Made by a program: the position numbers and the translations under genes. Below the pieces are notes generated by a model that was given only the letters and a program-made list of their open reading frames with translations, had not been told where the DNA came from and did no database searches. From Pedobacter indicus (lineage in GTDB: Bacteria > Bacteroidota > Bacteroidia > Sphingobacteriales > Sphingobacteriaceae), in the NCBI RefSeq assembly GCF_003449035.1, contig NZ_QRGB01000001.1:3162001-3226000 (forward strand): a stretch of DNA of 64,000 nucleotides, in the 5' to 3' direction. Of the stretch, positions 3,873 to 12,149 are shown piece by piece (the stretch's first letter is position 1; each line of letters begins with the position of its first letter).

Positions 3873-5261
3873 TTAAACAATGGGGTTTTCTTTATCTACC
3901 CATTCCTTCATTCCTCCAGAAAAATTTGAAACGTTTTTAAAACCCTGCCTCTTTAATAAAGAATAAGCAATCGTAGCCCGGTCTCCACTTTGGCAATGAA
4001 TTATCACATGTTTGTTGGGATCTATTTTGTCAAGATTGTCCGGAAACGTTCCTACGAACACATGTTTTGTGCCCGCAATATGACCCGCATCATATTCGTT
4101 AAGTCCACGAACATCCACAACCTGAACGCCTTCTTTCCCCTGCAGGGACTTAAAAGTTTCTATATCAATGAGATCAGCGGTTTGTAAACTCAAATCCAAA
4201 TCCTCGATATTGGAGACGTATCCATAAATATTGTCCAGACCAATGCGCATCAATTTACGAGTCAACTCTTCGATCTGACTATCCTCAGCCACTAATAAAA
4301 ACTGTTCCTGATAATTTAGCAGCCATCCGGCCCAGGTTGAAAGTGAATTGTTCCCCTGGATATTAATACTACCGGGAATAAATCCTTTTGCGAAATCAAG
4401 TTTATTCCGGGTATCAATTACCTTCAGGCCATTGTTATAAGCGGTTAAAAACTGATTTTTAGTTAATTTGGGGTGTCTAGGAACCTCGATCAATAAGGGG
4501 CGTGGCACCTTATTAAGATGTTTCATCATGGCAAAGTACTTGGGAGGTTCGGGTTGACCTTCCAATAAATAACGGATAAATCCTTCCTCATTATCTTGAT
4601 AATGAAATGCCCAGTTACGTATCTTTTCGTATCCTACAGTTGAACTGGGTACTGAGCCTAACGATTTTCCGCAAGCAGAACCCGCACCATGTCCCGGCCA
4701 TACTTGAACATACTCAGGTAGCTCGGCAAACCGTTGTATAGATTCATACATTTGTTTGGCTCCCTTTTCCATCGTTCCTGTCATTCCAGCGGCTTTTTCG
4801 AGTAGATCGGGACGCCCAATATCGCCCACAAATACAAAATCTCCCGTGAATACCATAACGGGGTCTACAGTTGCAGGATGATCAGTTAATAAAAAGCTGA
4901 TGCTCTCAGGGGTATGCCCCGGTGTATGCAATACCTCTAAAGTCAGATTTCCGACTTTCATGATATTTCCATGAAGTAGGCCTGTATGCGGGAATTGATA
5001 TTGCCAATCTTCTCCGCCCTCATCAGACAAATAGAGATTTGCACCTGTCACAACAGAAAGTTCTCTTGAGCCGCTAAGAAAATCGGCATGGATGTGTGTT
5101 TCTGCAATATGGGTTATCTTGAGATTGTTTTGTTTGGCTATCGACAAATAAACGTCAACATCTCGTTGTGGATCGATAACAATTGCTTCGCCTTTAGCCT
5201 GACAACCAATAAAATAACTTGCTTGTGCTAAAGACTTGTCGTATACGTGTTGAAAAAACAT
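3873..5261 (-). CDS. MBL-fold persulfide dioxygenase with two rhodanese domains (CstB/ETHE1-like)
   Basis: Residues about 1-240 are a metallo-beta-lactamase fold with the metal motif THIHADF and later ligands in HTPGHT and WPGHGAG. This is the ETHE1-type persulfide dioxygenase pattern, which oxidizes glutathione or other persulfides to sulfite. Two rhodanese domains follow. The first (about 265-345) lacks an active-site cysteine (VAEDSQ). The second (about 360-460) has an intact loop HCQSGDRAT. The order matches CstB-type enzymes. It lies 10 bp after the TauE permease stop and is surely cotranscribed with it, which fits oxidation of persulfide followed by export of sulfite. The length of 462 is normal for the fusion. 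Confidence 0.93.
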   Translation of the reverse strand: MFFQHVYDKSLAQASYFIGCQAKGEAIVIDPQRDVDVYLSIAKQNNLKITHIAETHIHADFLSGSRELSVVTGANLYLSDEGGEDWQYQFPHTGLLHGNIMKVGNLTLEVLHTPGHTPESISFLLTDHPATVDPVMVFTGDFVFVGDIGRPDLLEKAAGMTGTMEKGAKQMYESIQRFAELPEYVQVWPGHGAGSACGKSLGSVPSSTVGYEKIRNWAFHYQDNEEGFIRYLLEGQPEPPKYFAMMKHLNKVPRPLLIEVPRHPKLTKNQFLTAYNNGLKVIDTRNKLDFAKGFIPGSINIQGNNSLSTWAGWLLNYQEQFLLVAEDSQIEELTRKLMRIGLDNIYGYVSNIEDLDLSLQTADLIDIETFKSLQGKEGVQVVDVRGLNEYDAGHIAGTKHVFVGTFPDNLDKIDPNKHVIIHCQSGDRATIAYSLLKRQGFKNVSNFSGGMKEWVDKENPIV

Positions 5262-5271
5262 AATTATGAAT

Positions 5272-6084
5272 TTAAGAGTGATTTAAAAATAATTCGCTGA
5301 TAAGTATGTATATTCCCATAACCAGTACAAACCATCCGAATGCGGTTTTGAGTTTGACACCAGAGATTTTTCTTGAAAGATAAAAGCCTATTAGTATTCC
5401 AAGAGTGGATAGGCCCGTAAACGAAAGGAGCAAGCTCCAATCGATCGTCTGACTACTTTGTACGTCGCCCAGAAATCCTATCAAAGACTTCGCTGCGATA
5501 ATAAAAAGGGAAGTCCCTACGGCTAACTTCATTGGCATTTTAGCCAACAACACCAAGGCCGGTATGATCAAGAACCCTCCCCCCGCACCGATCAAGCCAG
5601 TTAGTAGCCCGACGACTGTTCCCTCTAATAAAATCATAGGGTAGTTGTATTTGATTTTTCCCGTGTCTGTATTATTACAATCCGGGCATGGACGAATCAT
5701 CGAAAAGGCCGCAAAGATCATCACAATGGCAAAAAGTACCATTAAGGCGATAGGTTTCGTGATTTCGAGGGGTCCCACAGAAAACAGCTCGTGAGGAATT
5801 AAAGGCATCAAAAACGCACGAGTTAGGTAAACTGAGATAATGGAAGGTATACCGAATATGAGAACGGTTTTAAAGTCGACCTGCTTGTTAATTACATTTT
5901 GGACGCCTCCCACCAGAGACGTTGCTCCCACAACAAAAAGGGAATATGCCGTTGCTAAAATAGGTTCGACAGACATCACATAGACGAGTACCGGAACTGT
6001 TAAAATTGAACCACCACTTCCGATAAGTCCTAGCGAAATGCCAACCAAAATGGCTAAAATGAACCCGATTACTTCTGCTTCCAT
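5272..6084 (-). CDS. TauE/SafE family sulfur-anion permease
   Basis: This 270-residue membrane protein has about eight hydrophobic segments. It shows the duplicated glycine-rich signature of the TauE/SafE family: GLIGSGGSILTVPVLVY near the N-terminus and GLIGAGGGFLIIPALVLL in the middle. Members move sulfite, sulfoacetate or related organosulfur anions across the inner membrane. A CPDC motif (PCPDCNN) lies in the central loop. It is the first gene of the second sulfur operon. A TAAATTTG element and a 14-bp palindrome stand in front of it, and the dioxygenase follows after 10 bp. Sulfite export is inferred from that partner. Confidence 0.92.
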   Translation of the reverse strand: MEAEVIGFILAILVGISLGLIGSGGSILTVPVLVYVMSVEPILATAYSLFVVGATSLVGGVQNVINKQVDFKTVLIFGIPSIISVYLTRAFLMPLIPHELFSVGPLEITKPIALMVLFAIVMIFAAFSMIRPCPDCNNTDTGKIKYNYPMILLEGTVVGLLTGLIGAGGGFLIIPALVLLAKMPMKLAVGTSLFIIAAKSLIGFLGDVQSSQTIDWSLLLSFTGLSTLGILIGFYLSRKISGVKLKTAFGWFVLVMGIYILISELFLNHS

Positions 6085-6110
6085 TATTCACTTGTTAAAT
6101 GAGTATAGGA

Positions 6111-6154
6111 CAAATTTACGGCGGCGAAACGTTGGAAATGGTAACACGTGTTAC
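6111..6154 (-). promoter_or_regulatory. Promoter of the TauE-dioxygenase operon with Fnr-type palindrome
   Basis: On the minus strand TAAATTTG (6118 to 6111) matches the Bacteroidota -7 element. No -33 TTTG is found. Instead a perfect palindrome GTAACACGTGTTAC (6141-6154) has its centre 29.5 bp upstream of the -7 element, about where a class II activator of the Crp/Fnr family would sit. The half-site geometry (5-4-5) is that of Fnr boxes. The neighbouring Crp/Fnr gene is the obvious candidate protein; binding is inference. Confidence 0.7.
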
Positions 6155-6175
6155 ACAGTAATAAATGGTTGTAAA

Positions 6176-6820
6176 CTAATCCCTGGGAGGATAAAGTTCA
6201 ACGCTATTTCTGTTCAATTTGATTTTGCCCTCATTTTCCAAGACTTTTAGTAGCCTGGATATTACCACCCTTGAGCTGTTCAGATCCTCAGCGATTTCTT
6301 TGTGAGTTTTGTTAATTGTATTTGAACGGTTCACTTGACTCTTTTCTAATAGATAGTTGTAAAGCCGGCTATCCATATTCGTAAACGCAATATTGTCAAG
6401 AGCGCCAAGTAGTTCAATAAACCGATTGTTGTAGCTTTCCATCACAAAGGCACGCCAGGTTTTGTATTTCCCCAACCATTCTTCCATTTTACTGACAGGT
6501 ATCATTGCTACCAGTCCATCGTTTTCTGCTACGGCTTTAACTTCACTTTTTTTATCGCCCACGCAACAGGCCAGGGTCATGGCACAGGTGTCGCCTTTTT
6601 CGATAAAGTATAACAGTAGTTCTCCTTTATCATGATCTTCACGCATGATTTTTATCGCTCCGTTGATGAGCAAAGGCACTGTTTTAATATATCGTCCGAT
6701 ATCAATCAACACATCACCTTCCTTAAATTCTACCAGTTTTGCTGAAGAGACTATTTCATCAACCAAAGCCTTTTCGAATCTCCCGTTATAGGTGTTATAA
6801 ATCAAGTCCTCCATCGTCAC
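6176..6820 (-). CDS. Crp/Fnr family transcriptional regulator of the sulfur module
   Basis: The 214 residues comprise a cyclic-nucleotide-binding-like beta-roll (about 20-130), a dimerization helix and a C-terminal winged helix (KTHKEIAEDLNSSRVVISRL). A cysteine cluster, Cys79, Cys85 and Cys86 (TCAMTLACC), lies in the effector domain. It is not an Fnr N-terminal iron-sulfur motif, so redox or persulfide sensing through thiols is plausible but unproven. The gene is third in the YeeE operon, with 5 bp between the upstream stop and its start. Both module promoters carry matched GTWAC-N4-GTTAC sites, so it probably activates its own operon and the dioxygenase operon. A Met two codons into the gene is an alternative start. 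Confidence 0.9.
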   Translation of the reverse strand: MTMEDLIYNTYNGRFEKALVDEIVSSAKLVEFKEGDVLIDIGRYIKTVPLLINGAIKIMREDHDKGELLLYFIEKGDTCAMTLACCVGDKKSEVKAVAENDGLVAMIPVSKMEEWLGKYKTWRAFVMESYNNRFIELLGALDNIAFTNMDSRLYNYLLEKSQVNRSNTINKTHKEIAEDLNSSRVVISRLLKVLENEGKIKLNRNSVELYPPRD

Positions 6821-6825
6821 AGGTT

Positions 6826-7239
6826 TTAATGCGGTAATCTTTCTTTAAGCAGCCCATATATCCAAGTGCCTAATAGTGCACCCAATATAACAATAAAAAT
6901 GGGTAAATATCCCGCTCCGGCTAATACAAACATCGGACCCGGACACGCTCCTGCAAGCGCCCAGCCCAATCCAAAAATGATCCCTCCAATCAAATACCGA
7001 GAAATACTCTTGTCTTTGTTCGTTATCACGATCGGTTGATTATCAATATCTTTGATTGATCTTTTCTTTATATATTGAACGATCAGGATGCCGACGGCTA
7101 ATGCCGATCCCATCAGCCCGTACATATGAATTGATTGAAAGTTAAACATTTCATAGATCCTAAACCAAGATGCAGCTTCAGATTTATACATTACTATGCC
7201 GAAAAATGTTCCGATAATAAGATAGCGTAGTCCTTTCAT
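6826..7239 (-). CDS. YeeE/YedE (DUF6691) half-transporter, second unit
   Basis: This 137-residue protein has about four membrane segments. The conserved GACPGP motif carries the cysteine typical of the YeeE/YedE family, whose full-length members take up thiosulfate by relaying it over cysteines. Here the transporter is split into two genes, as is common in Bacteroidota, and this is the shorter half. It follows the longer half after 67 bp and precedes the regulator. The two halves presumably pair in the inner membrane. Confidence 0.88.
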   Translation of the reverse strand: MKGLRYLIIGTFFGIVMYKSEAASWFRIYEMFNFQSIHMYGLMGSALAVGILIVQYIKKRSIKDIDNQPIVITNKDKSISRYLIGGIIFGLGWALAGACPGPMFVLAGAGYLPIFIVILGALLGTWIYGLLKERLPH

Positions 7240-7306
7240 TATATTATTTGATTAGTTGATATCTTTATAATAAATTATGTTGCTGATGTTTTTTTCTTGT
7301 TTTTAG

Positions 7307-7864
7307 CTAAAATATCAGAGGAAAGAAAAGATGGATCATGAGCAACCCACCAATGAAAAATCCAATCGTAGCTATGAGAGAAGGCACTTGTAAATTACTC
7401 AATCCTGATATCGAGTGTCCCGAAGTACATCCTCCAGCGTAGCGAGCACCAAATCCTACCAAAAGTCCTCCGATGAGTAAGATGATAATGGTTTTGGGAG
7501 AAGTGAACGCCTGGTCACCAAATAATTCTGAAGGAACATAAGCAGTCCCTGCACTTTTGAATCCCGATGCATGGAGCATATCGATCGTCTTGGGATTGAT
7601 ATCTGGGATTTGATTAGATGATAAAAAGTGAGCGGCGATAGATCCACCTATAATAGCACCGACCATTACGAGCAGATTCCAGCGCTGACCTTTCCAGTCA
7701 AACCGAAAGAAGTCAGAAGTTTTGTCTGCACCGCACATCGTGCATAAAGTCCTCAAGTTGGAGGACATTCCAAAGTTTTTGCCGGTATAAAGCAAAGAAA
7801 ACATGGTTAAGGCAATCAAAGGGCCACTTACATACCAGGGCCAGGGGGCTACTATCCATTCCAT
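7307..7864 (-). CDS. YeeE/YedE half-transporter, first unit
   Basis: This 185-residue membrane protein is the N-terminal half of the split transporter. The family signature GGCTSGHSISGL carries the conserved cysteine and histidine. A pair of cysteines, CTMCGADKTSDFF, lies in the first third. It is the first gene of the sulfur operon and is preceded by the -7 element TACATTTG and GTTAC half-sites. Its role is probably import of thiosulfate or a related sulfur species, feeding or sensed by the downstream regulator and dioxygenase. Substrate identity is inferred from the family. Confidence 0.88.
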   Translation of the reverse strand: MEWIVAPWPWYVSGPLIALTMFSLLYTGKNFGMSSNLRTLCTMCGADKTSDFFRFDWKGQRWNLLVMVGAIIGGSIAAHFLSSNQIPDINPKTIDMLHASGFKSAGTAYVPSELFGDQAFTSPKTIIILLIGGLLVGFGARYAGGCTSGHSISGLSNLQVPSLIATIGFFIGGLLMIHLFFPLIF

Positions 7865-7950: not shown

Positions 7951-8294
7951 AAGGATGTCAAATGAATAAAAGTGTCTGGAGATATCTCATTAAATATCTT
8001 TCTTTCTCTAAATTTTACTCCTTCAAAATTAAACGCAAAACCTCGGATTCCTTTTGATAAAGCTCCCCTCTCCTAAGTGAATGAACCTGTCAAGAGAACA
8101 TGGAATAAATCGGACTGAGGTACGAAGGAGAATTTATGCCGTGAAAGCTCTTTACTGGTGAAGTGAACGTGAGACCTTTGCTGATTTCAAAAGAATGCGG
8201 GTTCCAGAATCACTAAAAACACACAACTCCCCTACAAGGTGTGAATTTACAATACGCTTCCTTTCTTCTTTTGTAATTCAAAACTCAATGAATT
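7951..8294. other. Intergenic left flank of the decayed mobile element
   Basis: No convincing gene. A 26-codon plus-strand reading frame (8081-8161, first residues MNLSREHGIN, rich in Arg) could be a remnant of a coding sequence, because its composition is protein-like, but I do not recognise it. The sequence changes character after about 7960, so the left edge of the element probably lies here. No terminal repeat was identified. Confidence 0.4.
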
Positions 8295-8626
8295 ATGACA
8301 CTAGTATCTCAACAAAAGAAAGGAGTTCGGTCTCTTCTTCCAACAAAAGATCAATTGCTAACCATTGGCGATTTAGAGAATTTTAAAGATGAAATGCTAA
8401 ATGAAATAAAGCAGATCGTCAAAGAAAGTAAAGGGCAGCCCGGCAAAAAATGGTTGAAGTCAACTGAGGTTAAAAACTACTTGGGATTTCCCACGGCTTC
8501 CTCCAAACGCTTCGTGATACGGGGACTTTACCCTACACAAAAATCGGCGGATCCATCTACTACGACTACGAAGATATTCACGCCATGATGGAAGCCAAGA
8601 AGTGCAACAAGGAAGATATGTATTAA
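8295..8626 (+). pseudogene. Helix-turn-helix (excisionase-like) gene of a mobilizable element, frameshifted
   Basis: The first 64 codons encode a coiled N-terminus and the segment KKWLKSTEVKNYLG typical of Bacteroidota MerR/excisionase-type HTH proteins. A one-base deletion near 8484-8489 then moves the frame. The expected continuation (GISHGFLQTLRDTGTLPY, then IGGSIYYDYEDIHAMME) is readable in the next frame down to the stop at 8624-8626. As it stands the product is a 97-residue protein with a nonsense tail. Such genes regulate or assist replication and excision of small integrative elements. The loss is either real decay or a sequencing error in the GGGATTT run. Confidence 0.75.
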
Positions 8627-8877
8627 GAATCGACGATGTGGCTAGGAGCACTATTACTGATATTCCTTGTTTTGTACAAGTAACCATTTTCTTTGATCAA
8701 AAAGGTTTCGGCCGAGAGGATGCCGAAACTTTTTTCAAAGAATACTCGGCTAGGCACTGGACCGGAACGAAAGGAATTCCGGTTAAGAACTGGCGAGCGA
8801 AGGCTTTGGATTGGATGTGGAGAAGGCAAAAAAACCGACCATATCTCCGAAGCAAATCGAAGCTGATGATCCCTTAA
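8602..8877 (+). pseudogene. C-terminal remnant of an element replication/primase-type protein
   Basis: Codons from about 8690 give FFDQKGFGREDAETFFKEYS followed by GIPVKNWRAKALDWMW. This F-(x)n-A-x-x-F-x-x-Y...W...NW...A..W pattern is the usual last 60 residues of primase/VirE-like replication proteins in Bacteroidota mobilizable elements. The start here (GTG at 8602) runs inside the preceding HTH gene and is not credible, so most of the gene has been deleted. It lies between the HTH gene and mobC, where such a gene normally sits. The family assignment is from memory of these elements. Confidence 0.45.
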
Positions 8878-8932
8878 AATCGAAGGCCCTTTGAAGGTAG
8901 ATTGCGTCGTTTTCTGCAATCAGCAAGATGTA

Positions 8933-8949
8933 CGTTTGTAATACAAACG
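8933..8949. repeat. 17-bp palindrome upstream of mobC, possible oriT component
   Basis: CGTTTGTA-A-TACAAACG is a perfect inverted repeat 79 bp before the mobC start. Relaxosome accessory genes are usually preceded by oriT, and an inverted repeat next to the nick site is a normal oriT feature. No nick motif could be recognised, so this is positional inference. Confidence 0.35.
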
Positions 8950-9027
8950 GAAATTGACCGCCCTTCCGAAGTCAGGTTCTGTCATTGTAAAAATATCCTC
9001 CGAAGTCGCACTCTTAAACGACAAATT

Positions 9028-9423
9028 ATGGAAAATACGGATGAAAATCGTTCCAGGGTAATTTTGATTAGGTTGAAGCCGAATGAGTATAAGCTCCTTG
9101 AAAATCGGTTCCAAAAATCGATGTTCCAATATATGAGTGAGTACAGCCGAAGCGTGTTACTTCAAAAGCCGGTAATCTTTACATACCGCGATAAGTCCAT
9201 GGATGACATGTTGGAGGAACTGATCAAGCTCAGAAGAGAACTGAGCTATATTGGGAATAATTTCAATCAGGCGGTCCACAAACTTAATAGTGTAATAGGT
9301 ATGCCGGATGCCAAACTATGGCAAGAAGCATTGACGGTTCTCAGAGATCAGCTTGAACCATCCATAGGAGAAATCAAGGACAAACTGAATAATTATTCAG
9401 AAATATGGTCGCAAAAATCATGA
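9028..9423 (+). CDS. mobC: MobC-type relaxosome accessory protein
   Basis: The 131 residues start MENTDENRSRVILIRLKPNE, a near-canonical opening for Bacteroidota MobC proteins, with a ribbon-helix-helix-like N-terminus. The middle (SMDDMLEELIKLRRELSYIG, then NNFNQAVHKLN) is the conserved family core. The ATG at 9028 is preferred over an upstream start at 8902, whose extra 42 residues lack family character and cover the putative oriT. MobC helps the relaxase open oriT DNA. The gene appears intact and overlaps the relaxase start by 19 bases, but with a broken relaxase it can only act for another element. Confidence 0.85.
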   Translation: MENTDENRSRVILIRLKPNEYKLLENRFQKSMFQYMSEYSRSVLLQKPVIFTYRDKSMDDMLEELIKLRRELSYIGNNFNQAVHKLNSVIGMPDAKLWQEALTVLRDQLEPSIGEIKDKLNNYSEIWSQKS

Positions 9424-9746
9424 GCGGAAGAAACATAGCTGGCGCACTAAACTACAATGAACGCAAAGTGAATCAGGGAAAGGCTGAACTCATTGGGCAA
9501 AGCGGGTTTCATAAAGATCTCCAACATCTCAATTTTTACGACAAGTTACAACGCTTTATTAATCTAGCATTGCGCAATCAACGAAACAAAACTAACTCGG
9601 TTCATATTTCGCTCAACTTCGCTGTAGGCGAACAAATTCCGGATTCAAAACTGATCGAGATTGCTGAACAGTATATGAAGCAGATATGCTTTCTGAGCAG
9701 CCATATCCGGTATAAGACTAATGACAATTCCTATGGAGTGCAATGA
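9405..9746 (+). pseudogene. Relaxase/mobilization nuclease, truncated N-terminal fragment
   Basis: The first about 90 residues (MVAKIMSGRNIAGALNYNE and TNSVHISLNF) match the N-terminal domain of Bacteroidota MobA/VirD2-like relaxases. Around 9690-9725 two small deletions scramble about seven codons and then restore the frame at YKTND. Translation stops shortly afterwards, before the conserved HxH metal-binding motif and the rest of the roughly 300-450-residue protein. Without those it cannot nick DNA. The TIR gene begins just downstream on the other strand, so the loss probably accompanied its arrival or a deletion next to it. Confidence 0.8.
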
Positions 9747-9817
9747 AGGACGAGAGACCAGAAAGCAAATCTGACTCTTGTTCAGACGATCAATACCATT
9801 CAAGCTACATTAAATTA

Positions 9818-10852
9818 TTAAAATGGAAGATCATCTGTTTGTTCAGAATTATCGCCTGATGTTTTGTTTGCTTTATCGATTTGGTTGCTTTTAACAATCT
9901 CTGAAATTTTGTTTGAAATATCGTCGGTAAGATTATGTAGTCTTTCTTGCATTCTTTCAATTAGCTGAACCTCTCTCGGATTACCGTAACTTGTAAGCTC
10001 AGAAACTTCGATCAATTTTTTGAATTCAAATCTTCTTAACACAGCTGAATAGTTTCTGGACAATTTATCATTTAAATCTTCTATGTCTTCCCAAACTCTT
10101 ATATTGTCTACTTCTACGCTCTCGCGCCAACCAGTTCCCAATTTATATTTAGCCGCTTCTATTATATAATGAACAAGTAGCACCTCTTCATCTTTTAATT
10201 TTTCATTCATTAGGTCAAAGAAAAATCGCTTGGTACTTTCTGATTGGGCATTACTACTATTGTTTACGGCTTCATCTTTTTTTGTAGCACTAACACTCTC
10301 CATTTCTTTTGCCACTGATACAATTGATTTTTCCTGAAAGCCGGATTTCAAAGTCGTTGGAGATACTGTTTCTTCGGAAGAAATTATCCTTTGTAAAAAC
10401 TCTGTAATTCGCTGATGAACTAATACAGGGTTAGTAGAAATACTAAAATAGCGCTTTAACGATTCTATAAATGCAATTAGTCTGCCTTGATTATTAATAA
10501 AAAATCCGATCTCTCTTGGATCTAACGCACTGTTTTGAAATTCATAGCTATCTAATTTAAATTTAGGTGTAAAGATCATTGTATGTTCATTTTCGACTAT
10601 CCATGCAGCCCCCATTTCATTTAAACAAGCTACACTGGAATAATACTCCGGTGATAATAAGTATATGACATACGGCTTTTCATTAATTTCACTTTTAAGC
10701 CAAGTGAAAATATTTTGCCCAGTGGGTATGCCGTAAGCATCGTTGCTGGTAAATATTATTTTATCACCGCTGATCCCCACCCCAATTAATAAATCGACAA
10801 GTGCATTTCCATAATTTTTGTTCCTGGAAGAGTGGGAGATAAAAATTTTCAT
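9818..10852 (-). CDS. TIR-domain protein with unknown C-terminal domain, candidate defence gene
   Basis: The 344-residue protein opens with a TIR domain (about 1-150). Strand A reads KIFISHSSRN, and the aC segment YYSSVACLNEMGAAW holds the glutamate (NE) that is catalytic in NAD-cleaving TIRs. A polar Ser/Glu/Lys-rich linker (about 160-200) leads to a helical domain (about 205-330), including TGWRESVEVDNIRVWEDIED and TSYGNPREVQLIERM, that looks like a winged-helix or helical-bundle partner domain. No signal peptide or membrane segment is present. It is the only long intact gene in a decayed mobile element. No ThsA or other sensor gene is adjacent, so it is not classical Thoeris. NADase-based abortive defence is inference. 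Confidence 0.82.
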   Translation of the reverse strand: MKIFISHSSRNKNYGNALVDLLIGVGISGDKIIFTSNDAYGIPTGQNIFTWLKSEINEKPYVIYLLSPEYYSSVACLNEMGAAWIVENEHTMIFTPKFKLDSYEFQNSALDPREIGFFINNQGRLIAFIESLKRYFSISTNPVLVHQRITEFLQRIISSEETVSPTTLKSGFQEKSIVSVAKEMESVSATKKDEAVNNSSNAQSESTKRFFFDLMNEKLKDEEVLLVHYIIEAAKYKLGTGWRESVEVDNIRVWEDIEDLNDKLSRNYSAVLRRFEFKKLIEVSELTSYGNPREVQLIERMQERLHNLTDDISNKISEIVKSNQIDKANKTSGDNSEQTDDLPF

Positions 10853-10939
10853 AATTTATTCATTGTCTAATTTTTCAATCCAAGCCAATCTACAACTCTT
10901 GCAAATCCCACTCAAAGTCTATTCTTCTAATCAATTATA

Positions 10940-10962
10940 ATTTATCCGTCGACCGGATAAAT
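10940..10962. repeat. Perfect 9-5-9 inverted repeat upstream of the TIR gene
   Basis: ATTTATCCG (10940-10948) and CGGATAAAT (10954-10962) flank TCGAC. It is about 90 bp upstream of the TIR start codon and looks like an operator or recombination site. No regulator gene is adjacent. Confidence 0.5.
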
Positions 10963-11502
10963 CTACCCAAATATTGCCGTTTATTCAAAAGAACAGAGCT
11001 AATGACAAAATCATTACATACTTTTGATACACATTCCATCCCCTGGTTCTTAATAATTAACCTCGTAGTTAGTTGTTGTCTACTACTTTTTTTGAATGTG
11101 AATGTTTGTTAGGGAAGAAACATATAGTATCTTTGGAGTATCAACAGTTCCCGCGAACAAAAGGGTGAACAAGGTTGAATAGCATTTTTAAATTATTGAT
11201 AATAAGATATTTAGAGCAAAGGGATCGCGTCCGGCCATCCCGACAATATTCAGTCCACCTGAATACACAAGGCTCTAAATCGTACGGTTTAGGGCCTTTT
11301 GTGCTTTTAAGCAGTCCTTTTCAATACATACTATTCTTCCTGTCATGCGAACAATAAGGCGAACAGATTTAAATTCTATATTTGTTCACCAGAATGAGTT
11401 AAAAACTTGATTTGCAATACTTTGTGAAAATAATGTATAAACTCATATGTATCAAAATGAATTACTTTTTTGGTTCGCTGGTGAACTGTTTCGACAAACT
11501 AG
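10963..11502. other. Non-coding stretch with stacked hairpins inside the mobile element
   Basis: No gene is supported; the short frame at 11175-11357 looks like chance. Two adjacent hairpins stand out: TATTCAG-TCCAC-CTGAATA (11247-11265), then an imperfect stem of about 16 bp (11266-11303, CACAAGGCTCTAAATC against GGTTTAGGGCCTTTTGTG) followed by TTTT, which resembles an intrinsic terminator. Together they could end a former gene or mark an attachment region. I could not fold any of it into a tRNA. Confidence 0.45.
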
Positions 11503-12149
11503 TCTGGATGGCTGGAGAAAAACCCTTTCGAACTTTATAAACTGCGCTTTGAGAAAGTTGAACGGGACTTCTTGACCGATAAAGAGCCCTTCAAAATTGA
11601 AGCGAAAGACTTTTCAATTCCACGTATCCAGTATGCGAAAGATCTGCTTGTATTCAGTTGTTATACCGGTATTGCATATATCGATGTTATGCAGCTTACA
11701 CCGGAGAGCATAACACTGGGAATCGATGGCAATCACTGGATCAAAACGACCCGTGAAAAAACCGATACCTCAGTACAAATCCCCCTCCTACCAAAAGCAA
11801 TTGCCATGATTGAAAAATATAAAAATAACCCCCGATCACTCGCACAAGACTCACTTTTTCCAAAAATCTCAAACCAAAAGTTGAACAGCTATTTAAAGGA
11901 GGTAGCCGATCTATGCGGAATTAAGAAGAACTTAACATTTAATTTGGCTAGACACACATTTGCAACCTCGGTTACCCTTTCCAACGGTGTCCCATTGAAA
12001 CAGTCAGCAAGATGTTAGGCCACACCACTATCCGAACCACACAAATTTATGCAAAAGTAGTAGAGCAGAAAGTTGGGAAAGATATGGCTGTTCTCAAAAA
12101 TCGATTGGAGAAAAATGAAAGGAAAAATTCTAAAATAGTCGCACGTTAA
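11503..12149 (+). pseudogene. Tyrosine recombinase (integrase), 5'-truncated and frameshifted
   Basis: From 11503 the frame reads NPFELYKLRFEKVERDFLT, the linker between the SAM-like and catalytic domains of Bacteroidota phage/transposon integrases. The catalytic domain has the first Arg region altered (CYTGIAYIDVMQLTPE) and an ARHTFA box equivalent to HxxR. A one-base deletion in the C run near 11990 ends the frame early; the missing end is readable in the next frame (SKMLGHTTIRTTQIYAKV), with the catalytic His and Tyr, down to TAA at 12147-12149. The whole N-terminal arm-binding domain is gone. It surely integrated the element that carried the mob genes. Confidence 0.85.

Follow-up and report, generated by a model that had tools for sequence, protein, structure and literature searches.

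The 64,000-nucleotide stretch of the 3.47-Mb Pedobacter indicus genome analysed here (the window; contig 1, positions 3162001-3226000) contains an intact TIR-domain gene that is probably, at a likelihood of about 0.7, an SpbK-type NADase defence gene carried on an ICE-derived island. Set against what is known, it is likely a variant of SpbK-type TIR defence located at the right end of such an island. New here is an unclassified C-terminal domain whose final residues, TDDLPF, are a near-copy of the host SSB tip.

The gene (9818-10852, minus strand; 1035 bp) is open throughout its 344 codons, as had been proposed from the letters alone. Its product matches Pfam TIR_2 above the cut-off (E 2.8e-8), and the Glu motif CLNEMGA, which holds the catalytic glutamate E79, is unbroken. 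An SpbK-type TIR domain (residues 1-156) is followed by a variable linker (residues about 160-203), an unclassified helical domain (residues about 204-325) and a C-terminal SSB-tip-like tail, ...EQTDDLPF. The codons for DDLPF and the stop occupy 9818-9835 (minus strand), and these last five residues are identical to those of the host SSB. A model of the full-length protein reaches a pLDDT of 62.7. The TIR domain opens at residue 1, and an in-frame stop codon lies immediately upstream of the gene. We considered whether the gene is N-terminally truncated and rejected this, because no open frame for a missing N-terminal domain lies upstream and relatives such as L060 and L082 begin at the same residue. 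About 90 bp upstream of the start codon is a palindrome with 9-bp arms, ATTTATCCG-TCGAC-CGGATAAAT (10938-10964), which is a possible operator or repressor site.

Kinship with SpbK is evident in both sequence and predicted structure. The PADLOC spbK profile matches residues 2-156 (E 3.7e-51), covering profile positions 150-305 of 308 only, and it is matched as well by all eight relatives tried. The only solved sequence relative of the protein is SpbK itself (9phb), found by phmmer with an E of 5e-24 and aligned gaplessly over 100 residues; the same structure is the top Foldseek match of the protein model (E 3.6e-7, TM-score by target length 0.77). Residues were mapped through the gapless phmmer alignment, with SpbK numbering and the identities of its NAD-contact and assembly residues taken from PMC12847820. 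Eight of the nine NAD-contact residues are identical (S8, S9, T35, I42, I48, F49, L52 and E79, the counterparts of S121, S122, T148, I155, I161, F162, L165 and E192), and the sole change places A75 at the position of Y188. E79 thus aligns with SpbK E192, whose mutation to Gln abolishes both NAD loss and defence (PMC11984713). Three of four assembly residues are kept as well (N78, G81 and W84 for N191, G194 and W197). The fourth, D158, is required for the BE interface of SpbK and is replaced by glycine (G45), which counts against our reading.

Full-length relatives of the TIR protein are rare and 46-60% identical to it. Among 399 genomes of the family, this one and three others have such a protein; further ones come from one of 395 genomes of the class and from Brumimicrobium. 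Two viral contigs also carry one (L082 2387-3409 and L083 1861-2883; 46% identity), positioned between the terminase and portal genes and oriented opposite to those for the terminase large subunit and portal, and this relative is a probable phage-borne defence cargo gene. Elsewhere, one relative (L049) has ssb and DUF932-like genes in its surroundings, and another (L002) lies near an integrase fragment. Two relatives possess additional N-terminal domains (L002, 1792-2163; L006, 1189-1500) that are dissimilar to each other and match no Pfam family, which points to exchangeable sensors. The gene is absent from the one other species of the genus compared, where relatives of the flanking genes are 35-62% identical and scattered over different contigs. 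No DNA relatives of 9715-11230 were found elsewhere in the two genomes.

The C-terminal domain comprises about 120 residues, is predicted to be helical and is modelled with middling confidence (pLDDT 68.6). It holds many residues that are invariant among the relatives. The domain has no Pfam match and no solved sequence relative, searches with its model gave no significant fold match, which does not establish a new fold, and it was found in no other protein among 395 genomes of the phylum, plasmids or phages.

The protein ends, at its extreme C-terminus, in acidic residues followed by [LI]PF, as SSB tips do: its ...EQTDDLPF stands beside ...NEDDDLPF in the host SSB, the shared element being TDDLPF in the one and EDDDLPF in the other. 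Related TIR proteins terminate in EDLPF (L005 and L060) or DDLPF (L006). Of seven full-length relatives, one lacks the tail (L002) and two have altered forms that still end in F (SLDF and KSLF). Right-end alignment of the four tailed proteins gives identity in 26 of 30 pairwise comparisons over the last five residues, against 4 of 90 over the fifteen before them; the pairs are not independent in either count. A genome-wide scan for DLPF before a stop codon returned only three open reading frames longer than 46 aa, namely SSB, a DUF3127 protein and the TIR protein. The DUF3127 protein itself ends in GEDDLPF, an SSB-type tip (L073 1501-1878, minus strand; G000 contig 1 near 638450). Among 353 open reading frames of at least 100 aa, an SSB-type end was present only in three TIR proteins and one SSB, and this SSB sits about 1.1 kb from the L049 TIR gene. 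In the literature searched, no defence protein, whether of TIR type or not, was found to bear an SSB-like tip.

The island carrying the gene is delimited end to end by exact 15-bp duplicates of an att core, TCCGGCCATCCCGAC, that has exactly two copies in the genome. One (contig 3150579-3150593) lies inside the 3' end of tRNA-Pro(GGG), 11.4 kb left of the window, and the other (11230-11244, plus strand) is at once the right end of the TIR island and the left end of a second element. They bound 22,666 bp (22.7 kb), and the TIR gene is 377 bp inside the right att. Beside tRNA-Pro at the left end, outside the window, is an intact 418-aa integrase gene. It is followed by ORF6N, ADP-ribosyltransferase-like, thioredoxin-family and DsbD genes, an RND efflux operon, a sulphur-handling cluster, the mobilisation segment and the TIR gene. 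The gene for the RND inner-membrane protein is open across the window edge, and all genes of the sulphur cluster are open (3873-7864, minus strand; MBL-rhodanese, TauE exporter, Crp-type regulator and YeeE/YedE-type transporters). Of the two genes directly behind the integrase (L053 10159-11309; contig 3152159-3153309), the ORF6N gene is a PADLOC candidate (PDC-S05) and its neighbour is of the ART-PolyVal type.

An integrase beside a duplicated att, of which one copy falls within a tRNA 3' end, gives the island the hallmarks of a tRNA-specific integrative element. Elements of this family insert in the 3' ends of tRNA-Pro genes, and the core TCC[G/T]GCCA[C/T]CCCGAC is common to their integrase-side ends and the tRNA 3' end. 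The island is, on its anatomy, derived from a tRNA-Pro-specific Bacteroidota ICE, with the TIR gene as right-end cargo. It is not a self-transmissible ICE, the relaxase being truncated and ICE homology stopping near 9714. Nonetheless, it may still move, given the intact integrase and matching att cores. In the same genome, a tandem array of such elements occupies tRNA-Pro(TGG) as well (G000 contig 1, 1509961-1627045, loci L054-L059; att cores at 1509961, 1566439, 1579404 and 1627045), with cargo close to right ends that includes a multiubiquitin/E2/ThiF operon (1559100-1562115) and apparent metal-resistance genes (1621406-1626752). The position of that operon near the right end of another family element fits the idea of right-end cargo slots, and these few cases are consistent with it.

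The mobilisation segment next to the TIR gene (8029-9714, plus strand) is 92.1% identical to part of an intact ICE of a sister species (G001). Beyond the matching part, that ICE encodes a MobB-type relaxase of 419 aa and a MobC-type coupling protein of 666 aa, followed by genes read by eye as GNAT, LuxR-type and RteC-like. Another intact relative is present on the same chromosome. The carrier is, judged by this homology, a relic of a full ICE. On the plus strand, its HTH gene (8295-8625) is disrupted where one A is missing from an A run near 8472. Two further genes on that strand, one for 91 aa (8602-8877) and one for a 131-aa MobC/NikA-like mobilisation protein (9028-9423), are open at the lengths seen in the sister species. 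Of the MobB-type relaxase (9405-9746, also plus strand) only a 113-aa 5' remnant is left; a 1-nt deletion near 9694 shifts its frame, and homology stops near 9714. No relatives of the relaxase were found in viral contigs. Beyond the right att lies the second, tandem element, both parts of which are on the plus strand. Its left end (11230-11506; 277 bp) is 83% identical to that of the first (contig 3150579-3150855) and is followed by an integrase remnant (11507-12149) that has lost its N-terminal part, about 645 bp relative to the intact copy, and is frameshifted. Because this broken integrase lies past the att core at 11230-11244, it belongs to the second element and not to the TIR-bearing one.

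These boundaries revise much of the earlier note, which had described a dead mobilizable element with four broken genes and one intact one. The damage to the HTH gene and relaxase is borne out by the sequence, whereas the supposed replication gene is the open 91-aa gene and the integrase at 11.4-12.15 kb was assigned to the wrong element, since the TIR island has its own. Nor is the TIR gene a lone survivor: the MobC gene, the 91-aa gene and many island cargo genes are open too, so "dead mobilizable element" is mostly wrong for an ICE-derived island of 22.7 kb whose integrase is intact. The proposal that the TIR gene is a defence gene borne by a mobile element fared better, being supported by its SpbK kinship, the ICE island and the relative on a viral contig.

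It had further been argued that a phage-defence gene was domesticated and kept by selection while its dead carrier decayed. The TIR frame is indeed intact beside a broken relaxase and HTH gene, and a codon model over seven full-length relatives gives an omega of 0.044 overall and 0.031 on the branch of the window's TIR gene, where omega = 1 is rejected (2ΔlnL 21). The TIR family is thus under long-term purifying selection. The value on that branch is low (0.03), but synonymous sites are saturated (branch lengths of about 10 and more), so that omega describes the history of the family and not the time since truncation. Damage to the mobilisation segment moreover appears recent. Relative to the sister species, dN/dS is 0.04 before the HTH frameshift and 0.013 after it (small numbers), and because both values are low, the break came late in the time since the divergence from the sister-species copy, or else is a homopolymer sequencing error; MobC gives 0.11, the 91-aa gene 0.38 and the start of the relaxase 0.22 (again small numbers). 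Two frameshifts were observed in about 1308 coding bases, and at that density a 1035-bp gene free of selection would stay intact with P of about 0.2. With two of the four mobilisation genes open and chance retention this probable, an intact TIR gene is no proof of selection. Domestication also sits poorly with an island whose integrase and att cores are intact and many of whose other genes are open, and we regard that account as very unlikely. A neutral passenger, an unused gene that came with the ICE and has yet to decay, would be expected to look intact after a recent truncation; nevertheless, the protein retains its catalytic residues, most of the residues for assembly and the tail, and a relative-rate test against L002 detects no acceleration (P 0.15-0.89), making this too an unlikely explanation. 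These data are compatible both with selection on the gene since truncation and with none.

For the SpbK-type reading, we infer NADase activity, phage defence, a trigger and a role for the tail. The protein would act alone in abortive infection and would be held inactive. Its C-terminal half would sense infection and draw TIR domains together head to tail, and the assembled domains would form composite active sites with E79, destroying NAD and halting phage growth. In E. coli, at least 17 partners are recruited by the tip of SSB (PMC10018359). If the tail mimics such a tip, it is likely to dock on proteins that have an SSB-tip pocket. It might dock on host proteins of the RecO, RecG, RecJ, PriA or DnaG type or on phage-coded equivalents, and phage replication or recombination complexes would then be the likely trigger or tether. 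The TIR NADase would in that case monitor, or be tethered to, SSB-interacting replication and recombination proteins and fire when that interaction is altered by phage replication or by recombination proteins that the phage encodes, a tentative proposal that we place a little short of even odds. A competing account keeps the ICE-borne SpbK-type defence and holds that the DLPF tail has no SSB-like function, leaving recognition of a phage structural protein to the C-terminal domain alone. Its precedent is SpbK, in which an N-terminal domain senses the portal YonE, and it is consistent with the many invariant residues of the C-terminal domain, with the loss of the tail in L002 and with the placement of the virus-borne relative between terminase and portal genes. 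Yet linkers in this family diverge freely, whereas the last residues are identical and equal those of the host SSB, and in this genome such an end is common to SSB-type proteins only. We consider this account plausible and somewhat improbable.

If the SpbK-type reading is right, SpbK-type defence extends to Bacteroidota ICEs with a differing sensor architecture, and the SSB-like tail allows a cheap, concrete test of the means by which phage replication might be sensed by a TIR defence protein. The correction to the inference of a dead carrier with live cargo is of more general use: retention can be taken as a sign of selection only once the true ends of the element have been located.

The closest known system is SpbK of Bacillus subtilis, encoded by a cargo gene of ICEBs1 that protects against a phage (PMC8880864), so the mobile context of the two genes is parallel. 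The proteins are alike in TIR sequence, catalytic Glu, most NAD-contact residues and status as single-gene ICE cargo. They differ in architecture, in that SpbK has an N-terminal portal-binding domain, which binds the portal YonE, and then a C-terminal TIR domain, whereas the protein described here lacks the former, carries its TIR domain N-terminally and has at its C-terminus a new domain bearing an SSB-like tail. Because the SpbK sensor is missing, the trigger of SpbK cannot be assumed. The carrier differs as well, being a Bacteroidota ICE at tRNA-Pro. Its mobilisation segment resembles the Bacteroidota modules (NCBIfam Bacteroid_MobA/MobB/MobC) in having an accessory mobilisation protein and a MobB-type relaxase, but lacks everything beyond about the first quarter of the relaxase; the MobC-type coupling protein of such modules is seen in the sister-species copy. 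Finally, the tail resembles the C-terminal tip of SSB, which reads DDDIPF in E. coli and EDDDLPF in the host, in placing acidic residues and then L-P-F at the extreme C-terminus after a variable linker, whereas here the candidate tip is joined to a TIR protein that has no OB fold.
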